This document shows, piece by piece, positions 8,181 to 37,200 of a DNA stretch of 37,200 bases. The notes beneath the pieces were generated by a model that saw only the letters and a list, made by a program, of their open reading frames with translations, searched no databases and was not told where the DNA came from. The DNA is from Rubrivivax sp. (GTDB taxonomy: Bacteria > Pseudomonadota > Gammaproteobacteria > Burkholderiales > Burkholderiaceae_C), in contig JAEUPF010000082.1 of assembly GCA_016790425.1 (NCBI GenBank), forward strand, positions 1 through 37,200, written 5' to 3'. Position numbers and translations under genes: made by a program. Each line of letters begins with the position of its first letter. The stretch's first letter is position 1.

Positions 8181-9884
8181 ATGCGCCCGATGGTCCTGCG
8201 CTCGAAGCTGTTCGTCGTGCCCGCCATCGCCACCGCGGCGCTCATCGCGAGCGGGCCCCAGCGCGTGGCGGCGCAGGCACCGGGCACGCAGCCCGGGCAG
8301 GTCGAGCGCCAGTTCCAGCAAGCGCCGCAGCCGCGCAGCCAGGCCGGCGCCTTCCGCCTGCCGGCGCCGGCGCTCGCCGCGCCGCCCGGCGCCGAGAACG
8401 TGCGCTTCCGCCTGCGCGAACTGACGATGGACGGCATGAGCGTCTATCCGTTCGAGTCCTGGCGCGAGGACTACTACCGCCTCATCGGCCGCGAGGTGAC
8501 GCTGGCCGAGATCTACGCCTTCGCCAACGGCCTCACCACGCGCTACCGCAACGACGGCTACATCCTCACGCAGGTGATCGTGCCGGCGCAGACCATCGAA
8601 GACGGGCGCATCCGGCTGCAGGTGGTCGAGGGCTACATCGCCGAGGTGCGCTTCGAGGGCGACGCGCCCGGCCCGCTGCTGAAGGCGCAGGCCGGGCGCA
8701 TCCGCGCCGAGCGGCCGCTGACGGCGGGCACGCTGGAGCGGCTGCTGCTGCTGATGAACGACGTGCCCGGCACCTTCGCGCGCGCGCTGCTGCTGCCGGC
8801 GGCGGCGCAGCCGGGGGCTTCGGACCTCGTGGTGCAGCTCGCGCAGCAGCGCGCAGGCGCCGGCCTGTCGCTGGACAACCGCGGCGGCCGCGCGCTCGGG
8901 CCGCTGCGCGCCACGGTCGAGCTCGAGCAGCGCGGCCTCATCGGCTGGGGCGACCGCACGAGCCTGCGCTACACAGCCGCCGAGAAGGGCGAGCTGAAGT
9001 ACCTGGCCCTCGCGCACGAGGAAGCGGTGCCCGGCCTCGGCAGCGACGGCACCCGCTTCGGCGCCGCCTTCAGCCGCGTGCGCTCCAGGCCCGACACCGG
9101 CACCAGCTTCATCCCGCTGAACCTGGAGACCTCGTCGGATTCCGGCTCGCTGACGCTCAGCCACCCGTGGCTGCGCAGCCGCAACCAGAACCTGTACCTG
9201 CGCGGCTCGTTCACCGGCCACAACGGCGCCACCGAACTGTTCGGCGTGCGCGACACCGAGGACAAGATCCGCGCGCTGCGGCTGGCGCTGACCTATGACG
9301 CCGCCGACACGGCCGGCGGCGTCAGCATCGGCGAGTTCGAGGTCAGCCAGGGCCTGGAGACTGCGGGCGCCTCGCGCGCCGGCGACCCGCTGCTGTCGCG
9401 CGCCAACGGCAAGCCGGCGTTCACCAAGCTCGGCCTGTACATCGCGCGCTCGCAGACGCTGACGCCGGCGCTTTCGCTGCTGGCGGCGGTGAGCGCGCAG
9501 TACGCCTTCGACGACCTGCTCTCGCCCGAGCTCTTCAGCTTCGGCGGCGAGCAGTTCGGGCGCGGCTACGACCCTTCGGAGCTGGTGGGCGACCACGGCG
9601 CGGCGCTGAAGCTGGAGCTGCGCTACACCTTCGCCGGCATGCTGGCCGGGCGGCCGGCCGCGGCCACGCTGTACGGCTTCTACGACGCCGGCGTGGTGCG
9701 CCAGCGAACCAGCGCCGGCGGCGACGCGCAGCAGTCGGCCACGTCGGCGGGGCTGGGCGTGCGCTTCGATGCCGGCCGCTACTTCTCCGGCTACCTCGAA
9801 GTGGCCAAGCCGCTGACGCGCGACGTCGCGGCCGAGGGCAACCGCGACTGGCGCACTTACGGGGGGTTGTCGGTGCGCTACTGA
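8181..9884 (+). CDS. TpsB two-partner secretion transporter (ShlB/FhaC/HecB family)
   Basis: Outer-membrane beta-barrel of 567 residues that exports the TpsA protein encoded next to it. It shows a signal peptide (about 1-33, ending RVAAQA), a first POTRA domain at about 72-155 (FRLRELTMDGM ... VVEGYIAEVRF), a second POTRA at about 165-225, and then a 16-strand-type barrel with alternating aromatic and polar strands. The conserved loop-6 motif appears as GRGYDPSELVGDHG with Arg461. The C-terminus ends in a barrel strand (GGLSVRY). The ATG at 8181 is preferred because a signal peptide follows at once; in-frame GTG codons at 8106 and 8124 would add a Pro-rich extension. No clear ribosome site is seen. 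It lies 53 bp before the TpsA gene, in the same operon. Confidence 0.93.
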   Translation: MRPMVLRSKLFVVPAIATAALIASGPQRVAAQAPGTQPGQVERQFQQAPQPRSQAGAFRLPAPALAAPPGAENVRFRLRELTMDGMSVYPFESWREDYYRLIGREVTLAEIYAFANGLTTRYRNDGYILTQVIVPAQTIEDGRIRLQVVEGYIAEVRFEGDAPGPLLKAQAGRIRAERPLTAGTLERLLLLMNDVPGTFARALLLPAAAQPGASDLVVQLAQQRAGAGLSLDNRGGRALGPLRATVELEQRGLIGWGDRTSLRYTAAEKGELKYLALAHEEAVPGLGSDGTRFGAAFSRVRSRPDTGTSFIPLNLETSSDSGSLTLSHPWLRSRNQNLYLRGSFTGHNGATELFGVRDTEDKIRALRLALTYDAADTAGGVSIGEFEVSQGLETAGASRAGDPLLSRANGKPAFTKLGLYIARSQTLTPALSLLAAVSAQYAFDDLLSPELFSFGGEQFGRGYDPSELVGDHGAALKLELRYTFAGMLAGRPAAATLYGFYDAGVVRQRTSAGGDAQQSATSAGLGVRFDAGRYFSGYLEVAKPLTRDVAAEGNRDWRTYGGLSVRY

Positions 9885-9937
9885 AACGGTCAGCATCGGC
9901 CAGGGGCATGCTGCGCAACGGAAGTGGGAGTGGAGCG

Positions 9938-12900
9938 ATGAAGTCCAAGACGATGCTGGCGGCGCTGCCGAGTGCCTCGCGCCCGAACCTGCCGCGCCCG
10001 CGCCCGACGTTGCTGACGGCGGCGCTGTTGGCCGCGGGCCTGTGCACGCAAGCGCCGGTGTTCGCCGCACCGGAAGGCGGCACGGTGCGCGCCGGCAGCG
10101 CCAGCATCACCGCCGGCGGCGCGCAGACGCGCATCGACCAGGCCAGCGCCCGCGCCATCATCGATTGGCGTTCGTTCAGCGTCGGCGCTGCCGAGAACGT
10201 GCTCTTCGTGCAGCCGACGGCGCAAAGCGCGACGCTGAACCGCGTCACCGGCAGCCAGTTGAGCCAGATCCTCGGCCGCATCGACGCCAACGGCCAGGTC
10301 TTCCTCGTCAACCCGAACGGCATCGTGTTCGGGCGCGGCGCGCAGGTCAACGTCGGCGCGCTGGTGGCGAGCACGGCCAACATCGGCAACGCCGACTTCA
10401 TGGCCGCTCGCCTCGCGTTCGGGCAAGCGGGGCAGGCCGGCGCAGCGGTGGTCAACGAAGGCCGCATCACCGCGGCCGAGGGCGGCCTCGTCGCGCTGGT
10501 GGCGCCCAGCGTGCGCAACGACGGCCTCATCCAGGCGCGCCTGGGTCGCGTGGCGCTGGGCGCCGGCGACACCTTCGCGCTCGACCTGTACGGCGACGGC
10601 CTCGTCAGCCTGGCGATGGACCGCTCGCAGCTCGCCCGCATCGAGCACAGCGGGCGCATCGAGGCCGACGGCGGCCGCGTCGTGCTGGTGAGCGCCGCCA
10701 CCGCGAAGGCGGCGCTGGACAGCGTCGTCAACCTTTCTGGAACGGTGCGCGCCGACGCCGTGCAGCAGCAGGGCGGGCGCATCGTGCTGCTGGCCCATGG
10801 CGGCACGGCGGAAGTGACCGGCACCTTGAGCGCGCAAGGCGGCGCCGACGCGGCCGGCGGCCGCGTCGAGGTGCTGGGCACGAACGTGCACCTCGGCTCG
10901 GCCGCGGCCATCGATGTCAGCGGCGGCACCGGCGGCGGCACGGTGCTGATCGGCGGCGCCTGGCAAGGCAGCGGCAGCACGCCGCGCGCCAGCAGCACCA
11001 CGGTCGACGCCGGCGCGCGCATCGCCGCCGACGCCACGCGGCAAGGGCGGGGCGGCGAAGTGGTGGTGTGGTCCGACGGCACCACGCGCTACGCCGGCAG
11101 CATCAGCGCCCGCGGCGCCGGTGCGGGCGGCGACGGCGGCCGCGTCGAAGTCTCGGGCAAGGGCACGCTCGACTTCGCAGGCGTCGTGGATGCCAGCGCG
11201 CTGGCGGGCAACGCCGGCTCGCTGCTGCTCGACCCGGCGACGATGACCATCGGCGCGGCCGAAGCCGCCCTCATCAGCCGCGTGCTGCGCACCGGCACCA
11301 GCACCACGGTGACGGCCGACGTCGACATCAACGTCGGCGCGGCCATCGACGGCCGCGGCCGCATCGCCGGCGGCGGCCTCACGCTCACCGCCGGGCGCGA
11401 CATCAACATCGACCAGTTCATCGTCACCGCCAACGGCGCCGTGCGCCTGAACGCCGGCACGGGCACGGTGCGCGTGGCGGCCAACCGCGGCGTCTTCAGC
11501 GGCAACGCGCCGATCACCGTCGCCGCCGGCGCCGACCTCGTCACCGGCGCCTTCGTCACCAGCGGCGCGCTCGCGCTGGCCTCCAGCGCCGGCAGCGTCG
11601 TCATCGCCACGCCGCTGGACGCCGCGCTCGGCGCGGTGACGGTGAACGCGGCGCAGGACGTGCGCATCGAGCAGCCGGTGGTCAACCTGCGCAACGGCAG
11701 CGCCTTCACCGCCACCGCCGGGCGCGACGTGATCGTCAACGCGCAGATCGACGGCCGCGGCGGCGCCGGCGGCGGCGCGTTGAGCCTCACCGCCGCCGGC
11801 TCGGTGCAATTCAACGAGTCGGCCATCACCGACCTCGGCGAACTGCGCGTGCGCGCCATCGCCGGCACCATCGCCACGGCCGCGAACCGGGGCCTCTTCA
11901 CGCTCGGCGGCAGCACGCTGGACCTCAGCGCCGGCGCCGACTTCACCACCGGCGTGCTCGGCACCACCGGGGCGCTGAACCTCACCTCCACCGGCGGCGC
12001 CGTCACCATCGGCCAGGGCATCGACGCCACGGTGGGCGCGACGACGATCCGCGCCGCCACCGACGCCAACCTCGACACGCCGGTGCTCAACCTGCGCAGC
12101 GGCGCGCCGCTGGCGGTGACAGCCGGGCGCGACATCACGGTGCGCGCGCCGATCGACGGCCGCAACGGTGCGGCCAGCGGTGGCACCGCCACGCTGACGG
12201 CGGGACGCAACGTGACGCTGGCCGATTCGATCGTCACCAACGAAGGCGCCATCGCCGTCACCGCCACCGCCGGCACCGTGGCGCAGCCGGCCGGCGTGCA
12301 GCTGCGCAGCGGCGCGGCGCCGATCGCCGTCACCGCGGGCGCCGACCTGACCACGGCCAGCTACGTCACCACCGGCAGCCTCGCCTTGCGCTCCACCGGC
12401 GGCGCGCTGACGGTGGCCGAGTCGATCTACGACAGCGTCGGCAACACCACGCTCGGCGCGGCCACCGACATCACCGTGGCCGCCGCGGCGCGCGTGGAGA
12501 ACGTGCGCACCGGCGCGGCGCTGACGATGAGCGCCGGGCGCGACATCGTCGTCGACGGCCAGGTCGGCCAGGACCGCGACGCGCTCACGCTGACCGGGCC
12601 CATCACGCTGGCAGCCGGGCGCAACGTCACCGTCAACAACGATGTCGTCACGCGCGACGCGCCGCTGACCATCACCGCCAGCACCGGCACCGTCACCGTG
12701 GCGTCGCAGATCGCCGGCCAGCCCGCCGGCGTGCGGCCGCAGGTTCGCTCGGGCAGCGGGGCGCTGACGGTGAGCGCCGGCGCCGACCTCGCGATCGGCA
12801 ACCCGGCGGCGCCGCGCCCGAGCCCGGAGACGCCTTACCTCACCACCGGCGCGTTGAGCCTGGCTTCGACCGGCGGCACGCTCTTCATCGAGTCGCCGAT

Positions 12901-14602
12901 CCCGGCCACCACGGGAACGGTGTCGCTGCTGGGCGGCAACGCGGTCGTCGTCAACGAGCGCATCTACTCGAACAACGGCGACATCACGATCACCGCCGGC
13001 CTCGGCGGCATCGTGATGAACACCGCCAGCATCGATGTCGTCGACCCGGCGACCAACACGCCCTACGCGACGACGCTGTCGGACATCGACGCGCGCCTGG
13101 GCAACCTGACGCTCATTGCGCGCGGCGACATCAACGCGCCTTCGGTGCGCACGGCCGGCACGCTGAGCATCACCTCCACCGAAGGCCACATCACCAGCGG
13201 CCGTGTCGTCGGCAGCCGCAACTCGCCGCTGTCGAGCCTGGGCATGCCGCAGCGCGTGGTGCTGGCCGGGGCGCTGGGCATCGACAGCTTCTTCACCGAC
13301 ACCTCCCCCGACGTGGAAGCGCGCTCGTCGCAAGGCTCGGTGAACCTGAGCGTGTTTGCGCCGCAGCGCCTGTACATCCAGGCGGCTCAGGACGTGGTCA
13401 CCGGGGGCTGGATCGGCCAGCAGGTGGAGCTCGTCGCCGGACGCGACGTGCTGCTGACGAGCCTGGCCGCCGCCGGGCTCGTGCGCGCCAATGCCGGCCG
13501 CGACTTCTCGCTGCAGGGCATGAGCCTCATCAACGCGCTGAACGTCAACGCGGGCCAGGACGTGCGGCTGCCCACCGGCGCCGGCGACATCACCTGGATC
13601 GAGGGCGCCGGCGGCAACCTGACGCTGCGCGACCCGGCCAGCGCCGGCACGGTGCTGGCGATGCGCGGCCTCACGCTCGCGGCGGGACGCGACGTCACGG
13701 TGCCACAGCCGGTGCACGTCTCCGATTCGCTGGCCATCACCAACATCGAAGCGACGCTGATGCCGACGACGCTGGCCGCCGGGCGCAACGTGACGCTCGG
13801 CCAGCTCGAGACGATCGGCGACGTGACGCTCACCGCCGCCACCGGCAACGTGACGGTGGGCTTTCCGCTCGGCGCGCCGGTGGGCGTGGCGCCCGGGCTG
13901 TGGAACCCCACCGACCTCGGCGTGCGCACGCTGACGATCAGTGCGCCGGGCACCGGCGCGGTCGTCAACCTGCAAGGCTCGCGCAGTTTCGGCAACACGG
14001 TGATCGTCGCCCCGAACGGTGGCACCGTGACCTCGGCCTACCACATCGGCTCGACCAACGGCACGGTGACGATCGTGGCACCGACGGTCGTCAACCCGGT
14101 GACCGCGATCCCGCTGCAAGTGCGCCTGACGCGGCCGGCGATCGTCAGCCCGGCCATCGCCCCCGGGCCGCTGCGCGCCGGCCCCGACGGGCCGCTGATC
14201 CCGGCGGCGCCCGCGCCCGGCGGCCCGGCCTTGGCCGAAGTGCTGGTGAGCGCGCCGGGCGCCATCGACGCCGGCGCGCTGGCTGCGCCGGGGCAGGGCG
14301 CGAGCGGCGGCGACGGCAGTGCCGAGGCCGCGGCCAGCGCCGCGCGCGGCACGGGTGCTTCGCGCAGCGGTGACGAGGGCGGCGCTTCCAGCGAGAGCGA
14401 GCAGGCGGTGAGCGGGGGTCGCGGCATCGTGCTGTACAGCGGCGGGCGCGGCATCGCGCTTGCCGCCGACCTCGGCCGCAGCGGCACCTTCGGCAGCGTG
14501 CGCACGCCGCCGCGCGAGGCCGACGAGGAAGAGCAGCGGCGGCGGCGCAGCGGTGGCGGCGGCGGCAACGGCGGCAGCAGCGGCAGCGAAGGCAAGCGCT
14601 GA
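9938..14602 (+). CDS. TpsA filamentous haemagglutinin-like exoprotein
   Basis: Large secreted beta-helical protein of 1554 residues, exported by the adjacent TpsB. It has a long signal peptide (about 1-43, ending PVFA), then the TPS secretion domain with NPNGI at 125-129 and the context VFLVNPNGIVFGRGAQVNVG. The rest is Gly/Ala/Thr/Val-rich beta-helix sequence with at least four imperfect units of 134-138 residues (TAGRD/TAGRN anchors near 486, 620, 756, 894; each unit has GADLxTGxxxTxGAL). The C-terminus changes to Pro/Ala/Gly/Ser-rich sequence with two GGRGI motifs, then an acidic stretch and an Arg4 cluster (R1534-R1537) before a Gly/Ser tail. The ATG at 9938 is preferred over 9908 because GGGAG at 9926-9930 is well spaced. 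The role (adhesin, matrix or other) is unknown; no toxin domain is seen. Confidence 0.9.
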   Translation: MKSKTMLAALPSASRPNLPRPRPTLLTAALLAAGLCTQAPVFAAPEGGTVRAGSASITAGGAQTRIDQASARAIIDWRSFSVGAAENVLFVQPTAQSATLNRVTGSQLSQILGRIDANGQVFLVNPNGIVFGRGAQVNVGALVASTANIGNADFMAARLAFGQAGQAGAAVVNEGRITAAEGGLVALVAPSVRNDGLIQARLGRVALGAGDTFALDLYGDGLVSLAMDRSQLARIEHSGRIEADGGRVVLVSAATAKAALDSVVNLSGTVRADAVQQQGGRIVLLAHGGTAEVTGTLSAQGGADAAGGRVEVLGTNVHLGSAAAIDVSGGTGGGTVLIGGAWQGSGSTPRASSTTVDAGARIAADATRQGRGGEVVVWSDGTTRYAGSISARGAGAGGDGGRVEVSGKGTLDFAGVVDASALAGNAGSLLLDPATMTIGAAEAALISRVLRTGTSTTVTADVDINVGAAIDGRGRIAGGGLTLTAGRDINIDQFIVTANGAVRLNAGTGTVRVAANRGVFSGNAPITVAAGADLVTGAFVTSGALALASSAGSVVIATPLDAALGAVTVNAAQDVRIEQPVVNLRNGSAFTATAGRDVIVNAQIDGRGGAGGGALSLTAAGSVQFNESAITDLGELRVRAIAGTIATAANRGLFTLGGSTLDLSAGADFTTGVLGTTGALNLTSTGGAVTIGQGIDATVGATTIRAATDANLDTPVLNLRSGAPLAVTAGRDITVRAPIDGRNGAASGGTATLTAGRNVTLADSIVTNEGAIAVTATAGTVAQPAGVQLRSGAAPIAVTAGADLTTASYVTTGSLALRSTGGALTVAESIYDSVGNTTLGAATDITVAAAARVENVRTGAALTMSAGRDIVVDGQVGQDRDALTLTGPITLAAGRNVTVNNDVVTRDAPLTITASTGTVTVASQIAGQPAGVRPQVRSGSGALTVSAGADLAIGNPAAPRPSPETPYLTTGALSLASTGGTLFIESPIPATTGTVSLLGGNAVVVNERIYSNNGDITITAGLGGIVMNTASIDVVDPATNTPYATTLSDIDARLGNLTLIARGDINAPSVRTAGTLSITSTEGHITSGRVVGSRNSPLSSLGMPQRVVLAGALGIDSFFTDTSPDVEARSSQGSVNLSVFAPQRLYIQAAQDVVTGGWIGQQVELVAGRDVLLTSLAAAGLVRANAGRDFSLQGMSLINALNVNAGQDVRLPTGAGDITWIEGAGGNLTLRDPASAGTVLAMRGLTLAAGRDVTVPQPVHVSDSLAITNIEATLMPTTLAAGRNVTLGQLETIGDVTLTAATGNVTVGFPLGAPVGVAPGLWNPTDLGVRTLTISAPGTGAVVNLQGSRSFGNTVIVAPNGGTVTSAYHIGSTNGTVTIVAPTVVNPVTAIPLQVRLTRPAIVSPAIAPGPLRAGPDGPLIPAAPAPGGPALAEVLVSAPGAIDAGALAAPGQGASGGDGSAEAAASAARGTGASRSGDEGGASSESEQAVSGGRGIVLYSGGRGIALAADLGRSGTFGSVRTPPREADEEEQRRRRSGGGGGNGGSSGSEGKR

Positions 14603-14603
14603 C

Positions 14604-17600
14604 GTGGTGCGCGCCATCGCGCGGTCGCTCGCACGGTCGCGGGCAGGTTCGCTCGCACGGTCGCTCGCACGGTCGCTCGCACGTTCGCTCGCAGGTTCGC
14701 TCGCAGGTTCGCTCGCAGGTTCGCTCGCAGGTTCGCTCGCGCTCGCCGCCACGCTCGGCTTCGCGTTCGCGTTCGCGTTCGCCACACCGCCGGCCGCGGC
14801 GCGCGAGCCGACGAGCGAGCCGATGCTGCGCGTCGAGGCGGGCATGCACACGACGCTGATCCGCCGCATCGCCGTCGATGCGCCGCGCCAGCGCCTGGTC
14901 ACCGCCTCCGACGACAAGACGGTGCGCGTGTGGCAGATGCCCGAGGCGCGCCTGGTCGCGACATTGCGCGTGCCCATCGACGCCGGCCACGAGGGCCAGC
15001 TCTTCGCGGTGGCGGTGTCACCCGATGGCCGCACCGTGGTGGCCGGCGGCTGGACCGGCTGGGACTGGGACAAGAGCGCCTCGATCTACGCCTTCGACAT
15101 CGCCAGCGGCCAGCTCGTGTGGCGCGTGGGCGGCTTCGCCGACGCGATCAACGCGCTGGTGTGGGCGCGCGACGGCGAGCACCTGCTCGTGGGCCTGCAC
15201 GGCCGCGGCGGCGTGCACCGGCTGCGCCTGGCCGACCGCAAGGTGATCGCCAGCGACACGCAGTACCAGGACAAGGTGATGGAGATCGACGAGCGCGCCG
15301 ACGGCCTCGTCGCGGTGGTGGCGCTGGACGGCATGGCGCGCCTGTACGGGCGCGAGCTGGCGCTGCTCGGCCGCCGCGCCGTGCCCGGCGGCGCGAAGCC
15401 CGCCAGCGCCCGCTTCTCGCCCGACGGCCGGCTGCTGGCGGTGGGCTTCATCGACCAGCCCGTGCTCACGGTGCTGCAATCGCGCGACCTGGGCGTTGCC
15501 TTCCAGCCGCCGCTGGCCAACGTGCGCGAGCAGGCGAGCTTCACCAGCGTGGCCTGGTCGTCGGACGGCCGCGCGCTGTGGGCCGGCGGCGACTTCCGCG
15601 GCGGCGGCGCCAACCCGCTGTACCGCTGGGACGACGGCGGCCGCGGCGCGGCGCAGGCGTTCGCGCTGGCCGACAACCGCATCACCGAAGTGCAGCAGAT
15701 GCCCGGCGGCGCGATCGCCTTCGCGGCCGAGGACCCGGGCCTGGGCATCGTCGGCCCCGACGGCCGCCGGCGCGCCTGGCGCGGGCCGGAGATCCTCGAC
15801 TTCGCCGAGGCGCACGGCCGCATCGAGATGTCGGCCAACGGTGCCGTCGTGCGCTATCCGTTGCAGCGCGCGGCGGGCAGCGCCACGCACAGCTTCTCGC
15901 CGCTCCTGCCCGGCGACCAGGCGCTGGCCGCGCCGCCGAAGGGCGAGCTGTTTGCGCCGGTGCTGCAAGCGCCGGGCCTCGCCGTCGAAGCCTGGAAAGA
16001 CAGCTTCGAGCCGCGCATCAATGGCAGGAAGCCGGCGCTCGACGAATACGAGATGAGCCGCTGCTATGCGCTGGCGCCGCAGCGGCAGGCGGTGCTGCTG
16101 GGCACCGAATGGGCGCTGCGCCTGCTGGACGCGCAGGCGCGCGAGCTGTGGAGCGTGAAGCTGCCGGCGGTGGCGCGCGCGGTGAACGTCAGCCGCGACG
16201 CCCGCCTGGCGCTGGCGGCGCTGTCCGACGGCACGCTGCGCTGGTACCGCATGAGCGACGGCCGCGAGGAACTGGCGTACTTCCCGCACCGCAACGGCCG
16301 CGACTGGATCGCCTGGGTGCCCGACGGCTACTACATGTCCTCGGTGGCCGGCGACAACTTCGTCGGCTGGCACATCAACCGCGGCCGCGACCTGGCTCCC
16401 GACTTCCACCGCGCGGTGCAGTTCGACCGCGTGCTGTACCGCCCCGATGCGGTGGCCGCCGCCTTCCGCGCCGCCGGCGGCCCCGGCGCGCGCGGGCCGG
16501 TGCTGGCCAAGCTCGGCGCCGACTTCGAGATCGGCAAGCTCGCCGACATCGCGCCGCCGCGGCTTTCGCTGGTGCTGCTGGGCGTGGAGCCCGGGCCGGG
16601 CGGGCGGCCGCGCGCCACCTTCGAGATGCGCGCCGAAAGCGGCAAGCGCGAAGTGCGCGACCTCACCGTCTTCGTCAACAGCATCCCGGTGACGCCGGCG
16701 GCGGAGCGCCGCGTCGCTGCGGGCGAAGCGCAGCAGCTGGCACGCCGGCTCGTGCTCGACCTGGCCGACGGCGCGAACCAGATCCGCGTCGAAGCCTTCA
16801 ACGGCGTCGCCATGGGCGTGGCCGAGGCCTTCGTCGTGGCGCCCGAGGGCGTTCGCGTCGCGGCGCCGCCGGGCGACCTGTACCTGCTGGCGGTGGGCGC
16901 CAATGCCTTCCCGGGCCTGCCGCAGAGCATGCACCTCGCCTACGCCGCGCGCGACGCCGAGGAGCTGGCCAGCGCGCTGCGCGCGCGCAGCGGCGGCGCC
17001 TTCGGCCGCGTGCATGTGCGCGTGCTCAGCGACGGCAGCGAGGCCAAGCCCGACCGCGCCGCAGTGCTGCAGGCACTGGCGTTCGTGCAGCAGGCGCGGC
17101 CGCAGGACACCGCGGTGATCTTCCTCGCCTCGCACGGCGTCAGCGACAGCGCCGGCAACTACTACTTCGTGCCGCGCGACGTGCGCGCCGAGGATCTGGC
17201 CGCGCTGGACAAGGGGCCGGTGCGCGAGGGCTCCTCGCTCGTGCCGTGGACGGCGTTCTTCGAGGTGCTGCGCGGCACGGCCGGGCGGCGGCTGCTGATC
17301 GTCGACACCTGCCAGGCGCGCAACATCGAGGGCCGCTTCGAGGCGCACCCGCTGCTCAAGCGCTCGGCCGCCTCGATGTTCGCGCTGCTCGTCGCCTCCA
17401 AGGGCAACGAGGAATCGCAGGAGTACCCGCCGGGCCGGCACGGCCTGTTCACCTACTCGCTGCTGCAGGCGCTGGCGCCCGAGAGCGACACCAACCGCGA
17501 CGGCACGGTCTCGCTGGCCGAAGTGTTCGACGCCGCGCGCCCGCTGGTGGAGCGGCTGCGCGACAAGCGCACCGGCGCGCAGACGCCGCAGATCGTGGCG

Positions 17601-17645
17601 CCGGCGGCGCTGGCGGAACTGCCGCTGTTGCGCGTCGGCCGCTGA
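14604..17645 (+). CDS. Exported WD40 propeller plus caspase-like (C14) peptidase
   Basis: A 1013-residue protein with WD40-type repeats (from about residue 70; first blade has VTASDDKTVRVW), a linker domain (about 640-750) and a C-terminal caspase-like domain from about 750. The catalytic dyad is visible: His844 in FLASHGVSD and Cys903 in LLIVDTCQAR. An EF-hand-like loop, DTNRDGTVSLAE (962-973), follows; many bacterial caspase-family proteins have a similar loop. The start is taken as GTG at 14604 (or 14607), one base after the TpsA stop. This gives a signal peptide of about 66 residues made of ARSL and AGSL repeats, then FAFAFAFA and a PPAAA cleavage region. The ATG at 14823 would remove it. 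The operon position suggests action on, or together with, the exported TpsA. Substrate unknown. Confidence 0.88.
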   Translation: MVRAIARSLARSRAGSLARSLARSLARSLAGSLAGSLAGSLAGSLALAATLGFAFAFAFATPPAAAREPTSEPMLRVEAGMHTTLIRRIAVDAPRQRLVTASDDKTVRVWQMPEARLVATLRVPIDAGHEGQLFAVAVSPDGRTVVAGGWTGWDWDKSASIYAFDIASGQLVWRVGGFADAINALVWARDGEHLLVGLHGRGGVHRLRLADRKVIASDTQYQDKVMEIDERADGLVAVVALDGMARLYGRELALLGRRAVPGGAKPASARFSPDGRLLAVGFIDQPVLTVLQSRDLGVAFQPPLANVREQASFTSVAWSSDGRALWAGGDFRGGGANPLYRWDDGGRGAAQAFALADNRITEVQQMPGGAIAFAAEDPGLGIVGPDGRRRAWRGPEILDFAEAHGRIEMSANGAVVRYPLQRAAGSATHSFSPLLPGDQALAAPPKGELFAPVLQAPGLAVEAWKDSFEPRINGRKPALDEYEMSRCYALAPQRQAVLLGTEWALRLLDAQARELWSVKLPAVARAVNVSRDARLALAALSDGTLRWYRMSDGREELAYFPHRNGRDWIAWVPDGYYMSSVAGDNFVGWHINRGRDLAPDFHRAVQFDRVLYRPDAVAAAFRAAGGPGARGPVLAKLGADFEIGKLADIAPPRLSLVLLGVEPGPGGRPRATFEMRAESGKREVRDLTVFVNSIPVTPAAERRVAAGEAQQLARRLVLDLADGANQIRVEAFNGVAMGVAEAFVVAPEGVRVAAPPGDLYLLAVGANAFPGLPQSMHLAYAARDAEELASALRARSGGAFGRVHVRVLSDGSEAKPDRAAVLQALAFVQQARPQDTAVIFLASHGVSDSAGNYYFVPRDVRAEDLAALDKGPVREGSSLVPWTAFFEVLRGTAGRRLLIVDTCQARNIEGRFEAHPLLKRSAASMFALLVASKGNEESQEYPPGRHGLFTYSLLQALAPESDTNRDGTVSLAEVFDAARPLVERLRDKRTGAQTPQIVAPAALAELPLLRVGR
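14619..14741 (+). repeat. 12-bp tandem repeats inside a signal peptide
   Basis: About ten copies of a 12-bp unit, GCACGGTCGCTC (Ala-Arg-Ser-Leu) in the first part and GCAGGTTCGCTC (Ala-Gly-Ser-Leu) in the second, run in frame through residues 6-46 of the WD40-caspase protein. The Arg-containing copies form a positive n-region; the Gly copies lead into the hydrophobic core. A shorter GCGTTC repeat follows. Copy-number change would alter signal-peptide length but not the frame. Confidence 0.92.
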
Positions 17646-17666
17646 GCGGCACCGGGCGTCCAGGAC

Positions 17667-17688
17667 GCGTGCGTGCACTCACGCACGC
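17667..17688. terminator. Hairpin between convergent caspase and VWD genes
   Basis: A perfect 9-bp inverted repeat, GCGTGCGTG and CACGCACGC, with a 4-base loop lies in the 65-bp gap between two convergent stop codons. There is no T-run on either side, so it is a possible bidirectional terminator or 3' stabiliser, not a canonical intrinsic terminator. Confidence 0.55.
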
Positions 17689-17710
17689 ACGCCCTCACGT
17701 GCTCACGCGC

Positions 17711-19852
17711 TCAGGGCTCCTTGCGCCGCAGGGCGCGCCACAACACCACCGCCGCCAGCGCAGCCAGCAGCAGCCACCAGGGCCAGTGCCGCTTGAGTGG
17801 CCCGGTGCCTTCGCGTCCGTTCGCGTCACCGCTCGCGGCGTTGCCTTTCGGGCGCACCACGGCGCCCGGTTCGGCCAGGTGGGCGAAGACCAACGCCGCC
17901 GCGTCGCTTCGGAGAACCACCACGTCGAGCACGCAGTCGTTGAACCAGGCGCTTTCGCGCTTCACGCCGGCGACGGCGCAGGCGGCCTGGCCGCGCTCGC
18001 GGTCCTTGCCTTCCAGGTTCTCGGCGAAGAACGGCAGCTTCGGCGGGCCGGCGCCGGGCACCGGGCTGCCGCAAGGGGCCAGCAGCAGTTCGTCGTTGCC
18101 CTGAACGCGCCAGCTCTCGCCGTAGCGGTGGTAGAGGTCTTCGAAGCGGATGGGCTCCTTCAGCGTCGCGCCGTCGCGGCCGGCCAGCACATTCGCTTCG
18201 CGCTCGCCCTGGCCGAGCAGCCCGCGCACCGGGGCGTCCGCGCGGCCGAGGCCCACCGCGAGGTTCATCCAGTTCGGGTGCAGTTCGGCGCGCACCCAAT
18301 CGCCCTGCGTGCGGCTCAAGACGAGGAAGACGTTGCCGGTGCGCGAGACCACCACGCCGCCGTCGAGCGCGAGTGGCTTGCCTTCGGAGACCTCGGCCGG
18401 CTTGCCGTCGACGGCCACCAGCGGCTTGGGCGCCAGGCAGATCGCCACTGCGGCCTTGCCGATGCGCGTGGCCACGCCATGGTTGATGGAGGTGTTGGGC
18501 CAGCTCGCCCCACCGCTCACCTGGCGCGCCTGGACGACGAAGGCGCCATCGGCGTCGCCGGCCTTCTTCGCCAGCACGAAGTCGCCGGTGGACTGGAAGT
18601 CGTAGGCCACGCCGCCGAAGGTGCGCAGGTGCGTGTCCCCGAGGCTCGTGGCGGCGGCGCAGTTGTTGGCTGCGCCGCCGGCGCTGCTTTGCGCGAGCAG
18701 CAGCGCCGGCCCGACGCCCGTGGCGGTGGGCGCGGCGGGGCCGAAGTTCAGGTTGTTCTTCTCCGCCGTGTAGCCGATCGGCACGCATTGCGGCGGCTGC
18801 ACGCCGCCGTCGTCGAGCTGCGCGCGCGCCACCATCGACGTGCCGGCGCTGAAGTCGACCTTGTAGCCGCAGCAGTCGCCGACGACGTTCCACTCGACGT
18901 CCTTCCAGCGCTGGTTCAGGCCGAGCAGGTTGTCGTGCGTGTGCAGGAACGCGGTGCCGTTGGCCCAGGTCAGCACCACCTTGTCCAGCGACGTGTCCGG
19001 CGCCGGCGTCGTGGGGTTGTCGAGGCCGGCGAAGGCCGACAGGCGCACCGAGCCGAGGTCGGCGGCCGTGACGCGCGTCGGGCCGACGTAGGCGCCGGGG
19101 CTGTTGAGGTAACAGTCGGTGTTCAGCGGGCTGCCGGGCAGCGTGGGCGACCACCCCGCCGGGCAGGTGGCGCCGAAGCCGAGGAGCCAGTACTCGACGA
19201 AGATGCGCGGGTTCGGGAAGCCCTGGTACTGCGAGTAGATGAACTGCTGCCAGGCCGAGCAGGCGGGCTTGGTGGTGCCGCAGGCGGCGATGGTCGCGTC
19301 GGACGAGACGGGAACGAACGGCTGCGCATTGATCTGCAGCGAGAACGCGTCGGGTGCCGTGCCGCCTGTGGCCAGCGGCCCGCTGGCGGTGAGGTTGGCG
19401 GGGGTGACGTTCTCGAAGCTGCCGGTGGCCGAGCGCACGGTGCCGCTGCTGCGCGCGACGACGTGGTTGGCGCCGCCGATGTCGAACGTGCGCGGCCGGT
19501 TCGCCTGCTTCGACGCCGTGAGGCAGGTGGTCTTGCGCCAGGTCTTGCCGGGGTACTTGGCGGTGAAGCATCCCTTGCCCGGCGCCGGCGTGGCAGCGAT
19601 CGCATCCTGCCAGGCGCGCATCGCCTCCTTGGCGGTCGTGGCGGCGGGAGCGGTGGCGGCAGCAGCGGCGGAAGATGCGGCCGAAGTGGCAGCCGAAGCG
19701 GCAGCCGAAGCGGCAGCCGGGGCCGGGGCCGTGGCCGAGGCTGTTGCCGATGCCGGCCGGGCCGCGGCCGGCGGCCGCTGCGCGATGGCCGCGCCGGCCA
19801 GCAGCATCAGCGTCAACGAGGCGGCGAGCGCGCCGCTGTTGCTCTTGTACAT
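17711..19852 (-). CDS. Exported VWD-domain protein with C-terminal membrane anchor
   Basis: A 713-residue protein with a signal peptide (about 1-24, ending AAIA), an Ala/Ser/Thr/Pro-rich linker to about 75, and an N-terminal region of about 300 residues with several Cys that I do not recognise. A von Willebrand type D-like domain follows from about 405 (GDTHLRTFGGVAYDFQSTGD ... AVAICLAPK ... VRGLLGQ). The C-terminus is one hydrophobic segment, WPWWLLLAALAAVVLW (690-705), followed by RALRRKEP. The segment-plus-basic-tail layout resembles sorting anchors such as PEP-CTERM, but no PEP motif precedes it; a simple inner-membrane anchor is as likely. It converges on the TPS/caspase operon and diverges from the PEP mutase-family gene. 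In animals VWD domains mediate multimer assembly; the bacterial function is not established. Confidence 0.85.
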   Translation of the reverse strand: MYKSNSGALAASLTLMLLAGAAIAQRPPAAARPASATASATAPAPAAASAAASAATSAASSAAAAATAPAATTAKEAMRAWQDAIAATPAPGKGCFTAKYPGKTWRKTTCLTASKQANRPRTFDIGGANHVVARSSGTVRSATGSFENVTPANLTASGPLATGGTAPDAFSLQINAQPFVPVSSDATIAACGTTKPACSAWQQFIYSQYQGFPNPRIFVEYWLLGFGATCPAGWSPTLPGSPLNTDCYLNSPGAYVGPTRVTAADLGSVRLSAFAGLDNPTTPAPDTSLDKVVLTWANGTAFLHTHDNLLGLNQRWKDVEWNVVGDCCGYKVDFSAGTSMVARAQLDDGGVQPPQCVPIGYTAEKNNLNFGPAAPTATGVGPALLLAQSSAGGAANNCAAATSLGDTHLRTFGGVAYDFQSTGDFVLAKKAGDADGAFVVQARQVSGGASWPNTSINHGVATRIGKAAVAICLAPKPLVAVDGKPAEVSEGKPLALDGGVVVSRTGNVFLVLSRTQGDWVRAELHPNWMNLAVGLGRADAPVRGLLGQGEREANVLAGRDGATLKEPIRFEDLYHRYGESWRVQGNDELLLAPCGSPVPGAGPPKLPFFAENLEGKDRERGQAACAVAGVKRESAWFNDCVLDVVVLRSDAAALVFAHLAEPGAVVRPKGNAASGDANGREGTGPLKRHWPWWLLLAALAAVVLWRALRRKEP
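19676..19725 (-). repeat. 12-bp repeats encoding the Ala-rich linker
   Basis: Copies of GGCAGCCGAAGC (plus-strand reading) lie in the VWD-protein gene just after the signal peptide and encode an Ala/Ser/Thr linker. In-frame and imperfect. Confidence 0.7.
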
Positions 19853-20032
19853 GCTGCGATGCTCGCGCAGTCGCACGGGCCGGGCAATGCGGTGACCTAC
19901 GCCCGTCCTTCGGACGGCCGCGGCGCCGCGCTTCGGCAGGCCCACGGCGCAACGCGGGTGCGAGAGCGGCGCAGCGCGCGGCGGAGCGCGCCGCTACAGT
20001 CGGCGGGCCATCGGAGAGAAGGACCCGCCGCC

Positions 20033-20899
20033 ATGCCCGCCACGCCCACGCCCAGCCGCCCCACCGTGGCCGACAAGCGCCGCGCCTTTCATCGCCTGCA
20101 CGAGGCGGGCTGCTTCCTGATCCCGAACCCGTGGGACGTGGGCAGCGCCCGCTGGCTGCAGGGGCTGGGCTTCCAGGCCCTGGCCACCACGAGCTCGGGC
20201 TTCGCCTGGTCGCGCGCGCGGCCCGACAACGGCATCACGCGAGAAATGGCGCTGGCGCACCTGGCCGAGATGGTGGCTGCAACCGACGTGCCGATCAACG
20301 CCGACTTCGAAAGCGGCTTCGCGGCCGATGCGGCCGGCGTGGCCGAGAGCGTGCGGCTGGCGGTGGAGACCGGCGTCGCCGGCCTGTCGATCGAGGACTC
20401 CACCGGCGAGGCGAGCGCACCGCTGTTCGCGCTCGACACCGCCGTCGAGCGCCTGCGCGCCGCCCGCCGTGCGATCGACCGCGCCGGCGGCGACACGCTG
20501 CTAGTCGGCCGCGCCGAAGGCTTCATCGCCGGCAGGCCCGATCTGGCCGACACCCTGGCGCGACTGAAGGCCTACGCCGACGCCGGCGCCGACTGCCTCT
20601 ACGCGCCGGGAATCCGCACCCGCGAGCAGATCACGGCCGTCGTCGCCGCGGTGGCGCCCAAGCCCGTGAACCTGCTCGTCGGCGGTGCCAGCGAGTGGAC
20701 GATGGCCTCCATCGCCGCGCTCGGGGTGCGCCGCGTCAGCGTCGGCGGCGCCCTGGCACGCGCAGCGTGGGCCGGCTTCATGCGCGCGGCGCAGCAACTC
20801 GCCGAGGAAGGCCGCTTCGATGCCTTTGCCGAAGCGGCGTCGGGCAAGGCGCTCAACGAGTTCTTCGCGGCGGACGCGGCCGGCTGGTCGCCCCGGTAG
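20033..20899 (+). CDS. Isocitrate lyase / PEP mutase family protein
   Basis: A 288-residue TIM-barrel protein of the PEP mutase/isocitrate lyase superfamily, which makes or breaks C-C or C-P bonds next to a carboxylate with Mg2+. Visible signatures are IPNPWDVGSARWLQ near the N-terminus, TTSSGFAWS, the metal-binding strand NADFESGF, then LSIEDS, and LVGRAEGFIAGRPD. The KKCGH loop of true isocitrate lyases is absent, so this belongs to the broad subgroup of uncertain substrate (oxaloacetate or 2-methylisocitrate-type lyases are possible). The ATG at 20033 follows GAGAAGGA with about 10 bases of spacing. It is probably a monocistronic gene divergent from the VWD gene, in a metabolic neighbourhood without a clear pathway. 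Confidence 0.88.
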   Translation: MPATPTPSRPTVADKRRAFHRLHEAGCFLIPNPWDVGSARWLQGLGFQALATTSSGFAWSRARPDNGITREMALAHLAEMVAATDVPINADFESGFAADAAGVAESVRLAVETGVAGLSIEDSTGEASAPLFALDTAVERLRAARRAIDRAGGDTLLVGRAEGFIAGRPDLADTLARLKAYADAGADCLYAPGIRTREQITAVVAAVAPKPVNLLVGGASEWTMASIAALGVRRVSVGGALARAAWAGFMRAAQQLAEEGRFDAFAEAASGKALNEFFAADAAGWSPR

Positions 20900-35418: not shown

Positions 35419-37200
35419 ATGGCCTCCATCATCCCGGCACTGACCACCACGCAGATCGCGGGCCTCGATACGGCCTCGATCGCGGCGCTGACGACGGCGG
35501 ACTGGGCCGCGTTCAGCTCGGCGCAGGTCGCGGCGCTCGGCACGTCGCAGCTGGCGGCCATCTCGACCGCCGGCATCGCGGCGCTGACGACGAGCGCGAT
35601 GGCGGGCTGGGAAACGGCGGACCTGTCGCTGCTGTCCACTGCCCAGGTGCGCGCCATCGAGACCGCCGACCTGGTGGCCCTGGGCACGGCGCAGATCGAA
35701 GGGCTCACCAGCGCCCAGGTTGTCGCCCTGTCCACCGCGCAGGTCCGCTCGCTGGAGACCGCGGACATCGTCGCGCTCGGCACCACCGACGTGGCGGCGA
35801 TGGGCACGGCGCAGGTCGCGGCGCTGGCCACGAGCCAGATCGACGCGCTGACGACCAACCAGGTGGCCGGGTTGACCACGGCTCAGATCGTGGCGCTCAA
35901 CACGGCGCAGGTGGTGGCGCTGGACACCTCCGACATCCAGGCGCTGACCACCAGCCAGGTGGCCGCCCTGACCACCGCCCAGGTGGGCGCGCTGCAGACC
36001 GCCGACGTGGCCGCGCTGCAGACGGCCGACCTGGTGGTGATGAGCACGGCGCAGATGCGCGCCCTGGCCACTTCGCAGCTGGCGGCGCTGGATACGACGC
36101 AACTCTCGTCGATGACCACCGCCCAGGTGGCCGGCCTGACGACGCAGCAGACGGCGTCGCTCACCACTTCCGACCTGAACGCGCTGACGACGAGCCAGTT
36201 CGCGGCGCTGACGACCAGCCAGGTGGCGGGCCTGACGACGACGCAGATCTCGAGCCTCGACACCGTCGACCAGGTGGTGCTGAGCACGGCGCAGATCCGC
36301 GCCCTCACGACGGCTCAGGTCGCCGCGCTGGAGACGGCCGACGTCGCCGCGCTCACCTCGTCGCAGGTGGCGGCGCTGAGCACGGCGCAGGTGCGGGCGC
36401 TGGAGACGGCCGACGTCGCCGCGCTGGAGACGACCGACCTGGCCGCGATGGCGACGGCGCAGATCGCCGCGATGGCGACGGCGCAGATCGATGCGCTGGG
36501 CACGACGCAGCTGGCCAACCTCACGACGACGCAGGTGGTGGCGCTGAGCACGGCGCAGCTCACCGCGCTGGTGACGAGCGACCTCAACGCCTTCACGACC
36601 TCGCAGTTCAGCGCCCTGACGACGAGCCAGGCTGCGGGGCTGACGACGACGCAGATCTCGAGCCTGGACACCGTCGACCAGGTGGTGCTGACGACAGCGC
36701 AGGTGCGCGCGCTGACCACGGCTCAGGTGGCGGCGCTGGAGACGGCCGATGTGGCGGCGCTGACCTCGTCGCAGGTGGTGGCGCTGTCGACCGCCCAGGT
36801 GCGGGCGCTGGAAACGGCCGACGTGGCGGCGCTGGAGACCACGGACCTGGCGGCGATGGGCACGGCGCAGATCGCCGCGTTCGCCACTGCGCAGATCGAC
36901 GCGCTCGGCACGACGCAGCTGGCCAGTCTCACCACCGCGCAACTCGTCGCGATGAGCACGGCGCAGCTGGCGGCGCTGGGCACGAGTGACCTCAACGCGC
37001 TCGGCACGTCGCAGTTCGCGGCGCTGACGACCAGCCAGGTCGCGGGCCTGACGACGACGCAGATTGCGAGCCTCGACACGGTCGACCAGGTGGCGCTGAC
37101 GACAGCGCAGATCCGGGCGCTGACAACCGCGCAGATCGCCGGCTTCGACACCGCCGATGTCGCTGCGCTGACTTCCTCGCAAGTGGCCGCGCTGAGCACC
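35419..37200 (+). CDS. Giant 8-residue-repeat protein (3' end outside window)
   Basis: The first 594 codons of a larger protein made almost wholly of 8-residue repeats of the form L-[TSEG]-T-x-[QD]-[VIL]-x-[AG], such as LTTAQVAA and LETADVAA. The repeats begin within ten residues of the start (MASIIPALTTTQIAGLDT), and no signal peptide or other domain is visible. Each unit has Ser/Thr followed three residues later by Gln/Asp, a helix N-cap pattern, so a solenoid of short helices is possible; a beta-solenoid cannot be excluded. Seventeen units form a 136-residue super-repeat. The ATG at 35419 follows GAAGGA with 8 bases of spacing. Export might be by type I secretion with a C-terminal signal outside the window, or via the flagellar apparatus given the promoter. 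I do not recognise a named family. Confidence 0.85.
   Translation, partial: MASIIPALTTTQIAGLDTASIAALTTADWAAFSSAQVAALGTSQLAAISTAGIAALTTSAMAGWETADLSLLSTAQVRAIETADLVALGTAQIEGLTSAQVVALSTAQVRSLETADIVALGTTDVAAMGTAQVAALATSQIDALTTNQVAGLTTAQIVALNTAQVVALDTSDIQALTTSQVAALTTAQVGALQTADVAALQTADLVVMSTAQMRALATSQLAALDTTQLSSMTTAQVAGLTTQQTASLTTSDLNALTTSQFAALTTSQVAGLTTTQISSLDTVDQVVLSTAQIRALTTAQVAALETADVAALTSSQVAALSTAQVRALETADVAALETTDLAAMATAQIAAMATAQIDALGTTQLANLTTTQVVALSTAQLTALVTSDLNAFTTSQFSALTTSQAAGLTTTQISSLDTVDQVVLTTAQVRALTTAQVAALETADVAALTSSQVVALSTAQVRALETADVAALETTDLAAMGTAQIAAFATAQIDALGTTQLASLTTAQLVAMSTAQLAALGTSDLNALGTSQFAALTTSQVAGLTTTQIASLDTVDQVALTTAQIRALTTAQIAGFDTADVAALTSSQVAALST
36265..37200 (+). repeat. 408-bp super-repeat of 24-bp units
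   Basis: The marker GTCGACCAGGTG occurs at 36265 and 36673, and GTCGACCAGGTGG recurs at 37081: spacing exactly 408 bp twice, equal to seventeen 24-bp units. Two full units and the start of a third lie in the window. The stretch before 36265 has the same 24-bp periodicity but is more diverged. Confidence 0.92.

Follow-up and report, generated by a model that had tools for sequence, protein, structure and literature searches.

In Pseudomonas aeruginosa, the periplasmic cysteine protease LapG cuts the C-terminal tail of CdrA, an adhesin exported with CdrB by two-partner secretion (TPS), and thereby sets its retention on the cell surface (available sections of PMC4694147 and PMC5422565). The LapG site in CdrA is only proposed there, at an alanine pair (PMC4694147); LapG answers to cyclic diguanylate (c-di-GMP), and maturation proteases, LapG included, are apparently encoded outside TPS operons, according to the sections available of a 2017 review (PMC5422565). 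As to caspases, Table 1 of a 2012 toxin survey names HINT as the only processing protease of the type V route and puts caspase toxins with type VII secretion (T7SS), Photorhabdus virulence cassettes (PVC), TcdB/TcaC, and type II secretion (T2SS), while its toxin table also counts type V among the routes for some (PMC3482391, in the part available). The word "caspase" is absent from the main text, as available, of a 2019 overview of type V passengers (PMC6555100), the strings "hemagg," "haemagg," and "two-partner" are absent from the available text of a 2012 survey of prokaryotic caspase homologues (PMC3501461), and no title or abstract opening on a bacterial caspase gene in a TPS operon was found in open-license PubMed Central text among the matches listed. 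Here, we report a locus on contig JAEUPF010000082.1 of Rubrivivax sp. (the window, which is the entire contig of 37,200 bases; source assembly, 4.3 Mb and 82% complete), where genes for an outer membrane transporter (TpsB) and its passenger (TpsA) are followed by a gene for a WD40 propeller protein ending in a caspase domain (the WD40-caspase). Judged from sequence, the three genes probably form a TPS operon with a built-in exported protease, in which TpsA is predicted to be secreted by TpsB.

Operon layout and inheritance

The three genes lie on one strand with gaps of 53 bp (tpsB stop at 9884, tpsA ATG at 9938) and 1 bp (tpsA stop at 14602, caspase GTG at 14604), the tight packing described in the initial annotation of this DNA; an alternative tpsA start at 9908 is possible and would leave a gap of 23 bp. 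The start of the caspase gene is uncertain and a clear ribosome-binding site was not seen; GTG 14604 serves as the numbering origin, from which the predicted catalytic pair falls at His844 and Cys903, as first proposed. TpsB matched POTRA_2 (2.6e−17) and ShlB (4.3e−22), the signature of a two-partner secretion (type Vb) transporter, and TpsA, encoded next to it, carried the TPS domain of a type Vb passenger with NPNGI visible, so that Pfam and sequence bear out the annotated POTRA/barrel and secretion domain. Besides this domain, TpsA had no Pfam domain at an E value of ≤0.01, and TpsA gave the sole match when the window was scanned for TPS domains. Scans for sigma-70 promoters (0 promoter-like sites against 0.1 expected) and terminators (2 terminator-like sites against 4.3 expected) say little. 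Coordinates are collected in Table 1.

Table 1. Features of the locus (positions in the window)
Feature	Position	Strand	Description	Basis
tpsB	8181..9884	+	Outer membrane transporter; signal peptide, POTRA_2, ShlB/FhaC-type barrel	Pfam PF08479, PF03865; one TpsB clade
tpsA	9938..14602	+	Exported passenger with TPS secretion domain	Pfam PF05860 (1.3e−37); TIGR01901
TpsA C-terminal motif GGRGIALAADLGR	14441..14479	+	40 residues before the end; acidic, then Arg-rich tail after it	
WD40-caspase gene	14604..17645	+	Signal-peptide-like segment, WD40 propeller, further beta-rich region, C-terminal caspase domain	
12-bp tandem repeat, in frame (SLAR/SLAG)	14617..14740	+	n-region of predicted signal peptide	Tandem Repeats Finder
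Caspase domain PF00656	16872..17642	+	Metacaspase/MALT1-like fold	
Invariant Asp	16953..16955	+	L-x-x-A-x-x-D-A; aligned with ND motif of metacaspase-4	
Predicted catalytic His844	17133..17135	+		
Invariant Asp of D-x-C	17304..17306	+	Second expected S1 acid	
Predicted catalytic Cys903	17310..17312	+		
EF-hand-like loop DTNRDGTVSLAE	17487..17522	+		Sequence
VWD protein gene	17711..19852	−	Signal peptide, N-terminal region without Pfam match, VWD domain, C-terminal hydrophobic segment and basic tail; optional companion	

Public genomes were scanned with a six-member WD40-caspase alignment (A2), giving at least 363 relatives, with at least 79 loci kept; many GC-rich loci were examined by six-frame profile searches, the caspase there having been overlooked by self-trained gene calling. 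Profiles placed TpsB at 14 of the 79 kept loci, namely 13 of the 15 with ≥46% identity plus L062, where the TPS genes lie downstream of the caspase; at the two others with that identity, L041 and L042, the contig breaks off within the locus. The caspase tree, with loci from relatives added, held 96 WD40-caspase rows (93 different; duplicates of one locus, fragments of ≤750 amino acids [aa], and scores of ≤150 bits excluded). Within it, 22 WD40-caspases, here called class A (caspase downstream of the TPS genes on the same strand), form one clade with support of 100 and no foreign row inside; the caspase of L062 falls elsewhere in the tree.

At all 20 class-A loci not cut by a contig end, tpsB lies upstream on the same strand, and 19 of them have a TpsA with a recognized TPS domain. 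Genome G075 (L021/L047) has a 333-aa gene (L021, 11207 to 12208, minus strand) in place of tpsA between tpsB and the WD40-caspase; its product has the TpsA tail motif described below and no TPS domain. In G006 (L020), a 469-aa gene (11940 to 13349, minus strand; weak subtilase match, below the cut-off) separates tpsA from the caspase, and a second small caspase (18348 to 19187, minus strand) lies near tpsB; L037 has two tpsA genes. The 19 class-A TpsBs in a 55-row TpsB tree (matches of ≤350 aa, that of L037 among them, left out) likewise form one clade with support of 100, and their pairwise distances follow those of the caspase tree (correlation of 0.93 over 171 pairs). Class-A members span Rubrivivax, Rhodocyclaceae, Thauera, and other bacteria. 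Because the gene order recurs in a 22-member clade, it is not a product of chance; the three-gene neighborhood is conserved, and these comparisons show that tpsB, tpsA, and the caspase gene are inherited together. The fetched stretches (10 to 20 kb each) around 17 other WD40-caspases of the genus (L185 to L201) gave no match to TpsA or TpsB, and a tblastn search of TpsA in plasmids matched 177 records, none of which reached 80% query coverage.

The caspase domain and the TpsA tail

PF00656 is absent from the whole-frame Pfam listing at an E value of ≤0.01; searched alone, the caspase domain matched this Peptidase C14 family at 2.4e−13 (50.8 bits against a cut-off of 21.4), and the family was matched by 23 of 23 aligned members, the window included. 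The domain was also modeled alone because beta-propellers filled the fold search of the whole protein. The predicted model has the metacaspase/paracaspase fold of C14 enzymes, the nearest solved folds being plant metacaspases and the MALT1 paracaspase; phmmer of the domain against solved structures gave no caspase match. The predicted His/Cys dyad is intact in 21 of 22 class-A members, the window included, and in 70 of 73 other relatives longer than 750 aa. Both Asp residues listed in Table 1 are invariant in the 23 members of the alignment (A5), which includes relatives outside the clade, and we take them to be the S1-pocket acids for Arg/Lys. From these conserved acids and their expected roles, cleavage after Arg or Lys is predicted. 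Orthocaspases cleave after positively charged residues (PMC6426788, available sections).

Judged by a crude test of hydrophobicity, all 22 class-A rows have a signal-like hydrophobic segment ahead of the propeller, in agreement with the signal peptide annotated at the outset. The EF-hand-like loop (EF-hand_5 match in 1 of 23 members; weak polcalcin match, E = 1.6) perhaps points to calcium dependence of the caspase. Two other family assignments were rejected: EACC1-associated caspase (NF047832; 60.5 bits against a curated cut-off of 140) and CHAT protease (PF12770; no match of the window domain at an E value of ≤0.01, and weak matches in 3 of 23 members, best 0.0053). Peptidase_C25, presumably the gingipain family, weakly matched 4 of 23 caspase domains in the A5 alignment (best 5.2e−05).

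In most class-A TpsAs, [FY]xGGRGxAQxxD[LF]GR or a close variant of it lies 1 to 66 residues from the C terminus, in otherwise variable surroundings. Descriptively, a loose pattern is found in the last 160 residues of 15 of 21 complete TpsAs filed as class A (15 of 20 without L062), and a strict pattern, broadened by one letter after inspection of the window's own tail, in 17 of 23 tails compared with 1 of 46,000 shuffled tails; the 23 include the G075 gene, the upstream frame of the cut locus L041, and an orphan tpsA of genome G055. Only the controls and a scan of other frames lie outside the set from which the patterns were built. The motif occurred in none of 11 TpsA-caspase fusions, not in the single complete TpsA whose caspase lies upstream (class C, below), and in 1 of 8 complete TpsAs filed without a caspase (eight TpsA frames with no known caspase and one class-C frame, all cut by the end of the fetched stretch, were excluded). 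That one is the G055 orphan (L184, 3196 to 7887, minus strand; G055:C37), whose 14-kb contig has no tpsB or caspase match; the full operon of the same genome is on C231. Among other six-frame open reading frames, 2.49 million residues in total, the pattern was confined to the G075 gene and to the frame that directly precedes a class-A caspase at L041. The product of the G075 gene retains the motif although it lacks a TPS domain, which appears to tie the motif to the caspase and not to the beta-helix passenger, even though that locus has a TpsB as well. The shared motif suggests that the caspase acts on TpsA.

Other caspase-linked TPS loci and the VWD neighbor

In 100 related genomes, the window's own included, we counted 130 TPS-domain places, 94 of them in the genus. 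The caspase profile search scored at most eight first-look candidates per genome, and the class counts are lower bounds. Class A was found at at least 9 places, class B (TpsA and caspase sharing one open frame) at at least 16, class C (caspase upstream, same strand, within 6 kb) at at least 8, one of them also class A, and class D (a TPS domain with CHAT on the same strand, 69 to 782 bp upstream) at at least 8. Together they account for at least 40 of the 130 places, and no link was found at 90; for class C, the chance expectation among the 94 genus places is about 0.2. Classes A and B both occur in the window's own genome. Two class-B cases checked with Pfam are single proteins with both domains, the caspase being C-terminal. 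One own-genome fusion (L027, 6515 to 12334; G000:C58) has tpsB immediately upstream, with FHA (T6SS_FHA_C) and PP2C genes in its vicinity, and similar fusions recur in the genus. Class-C loci L147 to L153 contain an exported C14-TPR-CsgG-FlgT_C protein, a CsgG-like protein, tpsB, and a giant tpsA (domains checked by Pfam in L147, where C14, TPR, CsgG, and FlgT_C follow a signal-like start); the genes mostly adjoining them are presumably smpB, ratA, and guaB. Class-D sites are G009:C140, G012:C5, G013:C157, G017:C34, G018:C2, G029:C57, G043:C198, and G096:C8. The initial annotation had pointed to a link between some TPS loci and CHAT proteins in cyanobacteria; such a link is present in this genus (class D), and for the cyanobacterial part no paper on CHAT, two-partner secretion, and cyanobacteria was found in open-license PubMed Central text among the matches listed.

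The convergent gene beyond the caspase encodes a protein with a VWD domain (PF00094; 7.3e−06, 26.8 bits against a cut-off of 22.9). It had been called a surface protein; the domain stands, and because a signal peptide is joined by a C-terminal hydrophobic segment with a basic tail (both seen by eye), an inner-membrane-anchored periplasmic location is equally likely. A 569-aa query piece searched against the 100 genomes found a near-full-length relative only in G055 among the 99 others, adjoining the G055 class-A operon, and partial matches in G003 and G083; there was no match in G006, G009, G012, G023, or G039, all with class-A operons and in incomplete or fragmented assemblies. A relative in Thauera sp. 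2A1 (NZ_SSXV01000002.1, locus L036) lies upstream of tpsB, and there the VWD, tpsB, tpsA, and caspase genes all point the same way; the hydrophobic end with a basic tail is present in the window and G055 proteins and absent from this one. In all, the VWD protein was seen at 3 of the 22 class-A loci; for some of the 22, little flanking sequence is available. Its link to the operon, at first drawn from proximity only, is stronger now through G055 and Thauera, yet by these comparisons the protein is a real but optional companion. A 1,989-aa open frame (14930 to 20899, plus strand) crosses the caspase and VWD genes in the wrong frame, which reflects 74% GC content, where automatic gene calling can be misled. 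At the end of the window (35419 to 37200, plus strand), an ALTTAQ-repeat protein (PF20080, 4.9e−148), probably a large repeat protein, continues past the contig end.

Mechanism, alternatives, and known systems

We favor, and consider reasonably probable, the account that this TPS operon encodes an exported protease of its own and that the partner of the protease, as the motif and the linkage suggest, is TpsA. TpsB would carry TpsA across the outer membrane, and the WD40-caspase would pass the inner membrane to the periplasm or cell surface, where its propeller may dock TpsA. When the remainder of TpsA has reached the outside, the active caspase would cut after Arg or Lys, perhaps in a calcium-dependent manner, at the C-terminal motif or next to it. 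TpsA would thereby be matured, released, or switched from retained to free; the VWD protein may be an optional partner. Whether the caspase cuts the motif, docks there, or uses it as a sorting tag, sequence alone cannot tell.

Several points weigh against this account, which draws on sequence. The motif counts are descriptive and no test because the patterns were drawn from the same tails, and the strict pattern misses 6 of the 23 (no motif in L020 and L045, only the (A)DLGR half in L144, L145, and L146, and AGRG in L043). In L039, L040, and L111 the motif stands at the very C terminus, so that a cut would remove only about ten residues and a docking or sorting tag fits equally; moreover, as TpsB and the caspase are co-inherited, the motif could serve TpsB instead. 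The predicted basic P1 specificity leans on the expected roles of two acids, and both acids and dyad also occur outside the clade, so these enzyme features are no marker of class A; the crude signal-peptide test is likewise passed by 62 of 74 WD40-caspases outside it. Finally, the otherwise typical class-A locus L038 (caspase frame, 9407 to 12832) has Asn in place of the catalytic His, either a pseudoenzyme or an assembly error.

Of the alternatives, the one that survives best, and which we still think unlikely, makes TpsA a trigger rather than a substrate: TpsA or the propeller would sense contact or damage, and the caspase would cut other envelope proteins or kill the producer. WD40-caspases are indeed a broad family, most of the examined ones do not lie beside TPS genes, other TPS-caspase arrangements exist in the genus, and the class-B fusion places the protease at the TpsA end, in the own-genome case beside FHA and PP2C signaling genes. 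However, the locus has no PADLOC match, the conserved TpsA tail motif is better explained by TpsA being bound or cut, and the caspase appears to be exported, away from cytoplasmic death targets. The same PADLOC result led us to reject a defense system, one of the roles first suggested for the caspase.

Somewhat less probable is that the WD40-caspase acts as a C-terminal sorting enzyme: it would recognize the GGRG...DLGR tag of TpsA, as well as that of orphan or stand-alone proteins, cut there, and fix or release the tagged protein at the outer membrane. PorU of type 9 secretion and the glycosylphosphatidylinositol (GPI) transamidase are clan CD enzymes, and the WD40-caspase would be their TPS counterpart.

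We regard as improbable that the caspase is released to serve outside the cell as a weapon or for digestion, TpsA being the adhesin or the arm that delivers it. The class-B caspase is the C-terminal end of TpsA, the usual layout of a delivered effector, and caspase-type toxin domains are known for other secretion routes (PMC3482391, available part), but the class-A caspase has its own signal-like segment and no TPS domain, and the 65 bp between its stop and the convergent VWD gene leave no room for an immunity gene. For the competition device also suggested initially, the evidence is all negative, the spacing being joined by the lack of a recognized toxin domain in TpsA. Contact-dependent growth inhibition (CDI) was rejected: no CDI immunity gene directly follows tpsA, the next genes being the WD40-caspase and then the VWD gene, and Pfam recognized only the TPS domain in TpsA, where a toxin of an unfamiliar kind may nevertheless exist. 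That the caspase is a stable neighbor held by shared transcription only, with no direct work on TpsA, is very improbable: the motif could be a TpsB-related feature, but the caspase is retained in 20 of 20 testable members from varied bacteria with congruent distances, and in G075, whose locus has no TPS-domain TpsA, tpsB and the caspase are still accompanied by a gene bearing the motif.

On the favored account of a TpsA-directed protease, a TPS operon would include a caspase-fold enzyme as its constant third component, and the partner of this enzyme would bear a candidate recognition tag; the question of TpsA maturation therefore becomes a two-gene test. For exported bacterial caspases, a likely substrate could then be named, together with a function other than programmed cell death. 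That TPS and caspase-clan genes are joined repeatedly across the 100 genomes points to a wider link, on which no paper was found among the matches listed. In the predicted model, the enzyme resembles plant metacaspases and MALT1, its nearest solved folds, in the His/Cys dyad and in acids expected to form an Arg-type pocket. Those enzymes are intracellular and are not known to be tied to a secretion operon.

Among secretion systems, the caspase-containing polymorphic toxins also join a caspase domain to a secretion route (PMC3482391, available part), whereas the window caspase is a separate gene product. In the sections available of the 2017 review, the Haemophilus influenzae hmw1 and hxu loci are likewise three-gene TPS operons, but their third partner is a glycosyltransferase or a TonB-dependent transporter and no protease (PMC5422565). 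FhaB/FhaC of Bordetella share with our account a surface protease, SphB1, that matures TpsA; SphB1, however, is an autotransporter of the subtilisin type, and its gene lies apart from the fha locus (PMC5422565, same sections). A LapG-type, transglutaminase-like release protease was rejected for the window, where the protease is of the C14 caspase family. CdrA with LapG is the nearest working model for the predicted action of this operon, the tail of a TPS adhesin being the target of a cysteine protease; LapG is a transglutaminase-like cysteine proteinase and no caspase, whereas the predicted protease described here is unrelated to it and encoded within the operon.

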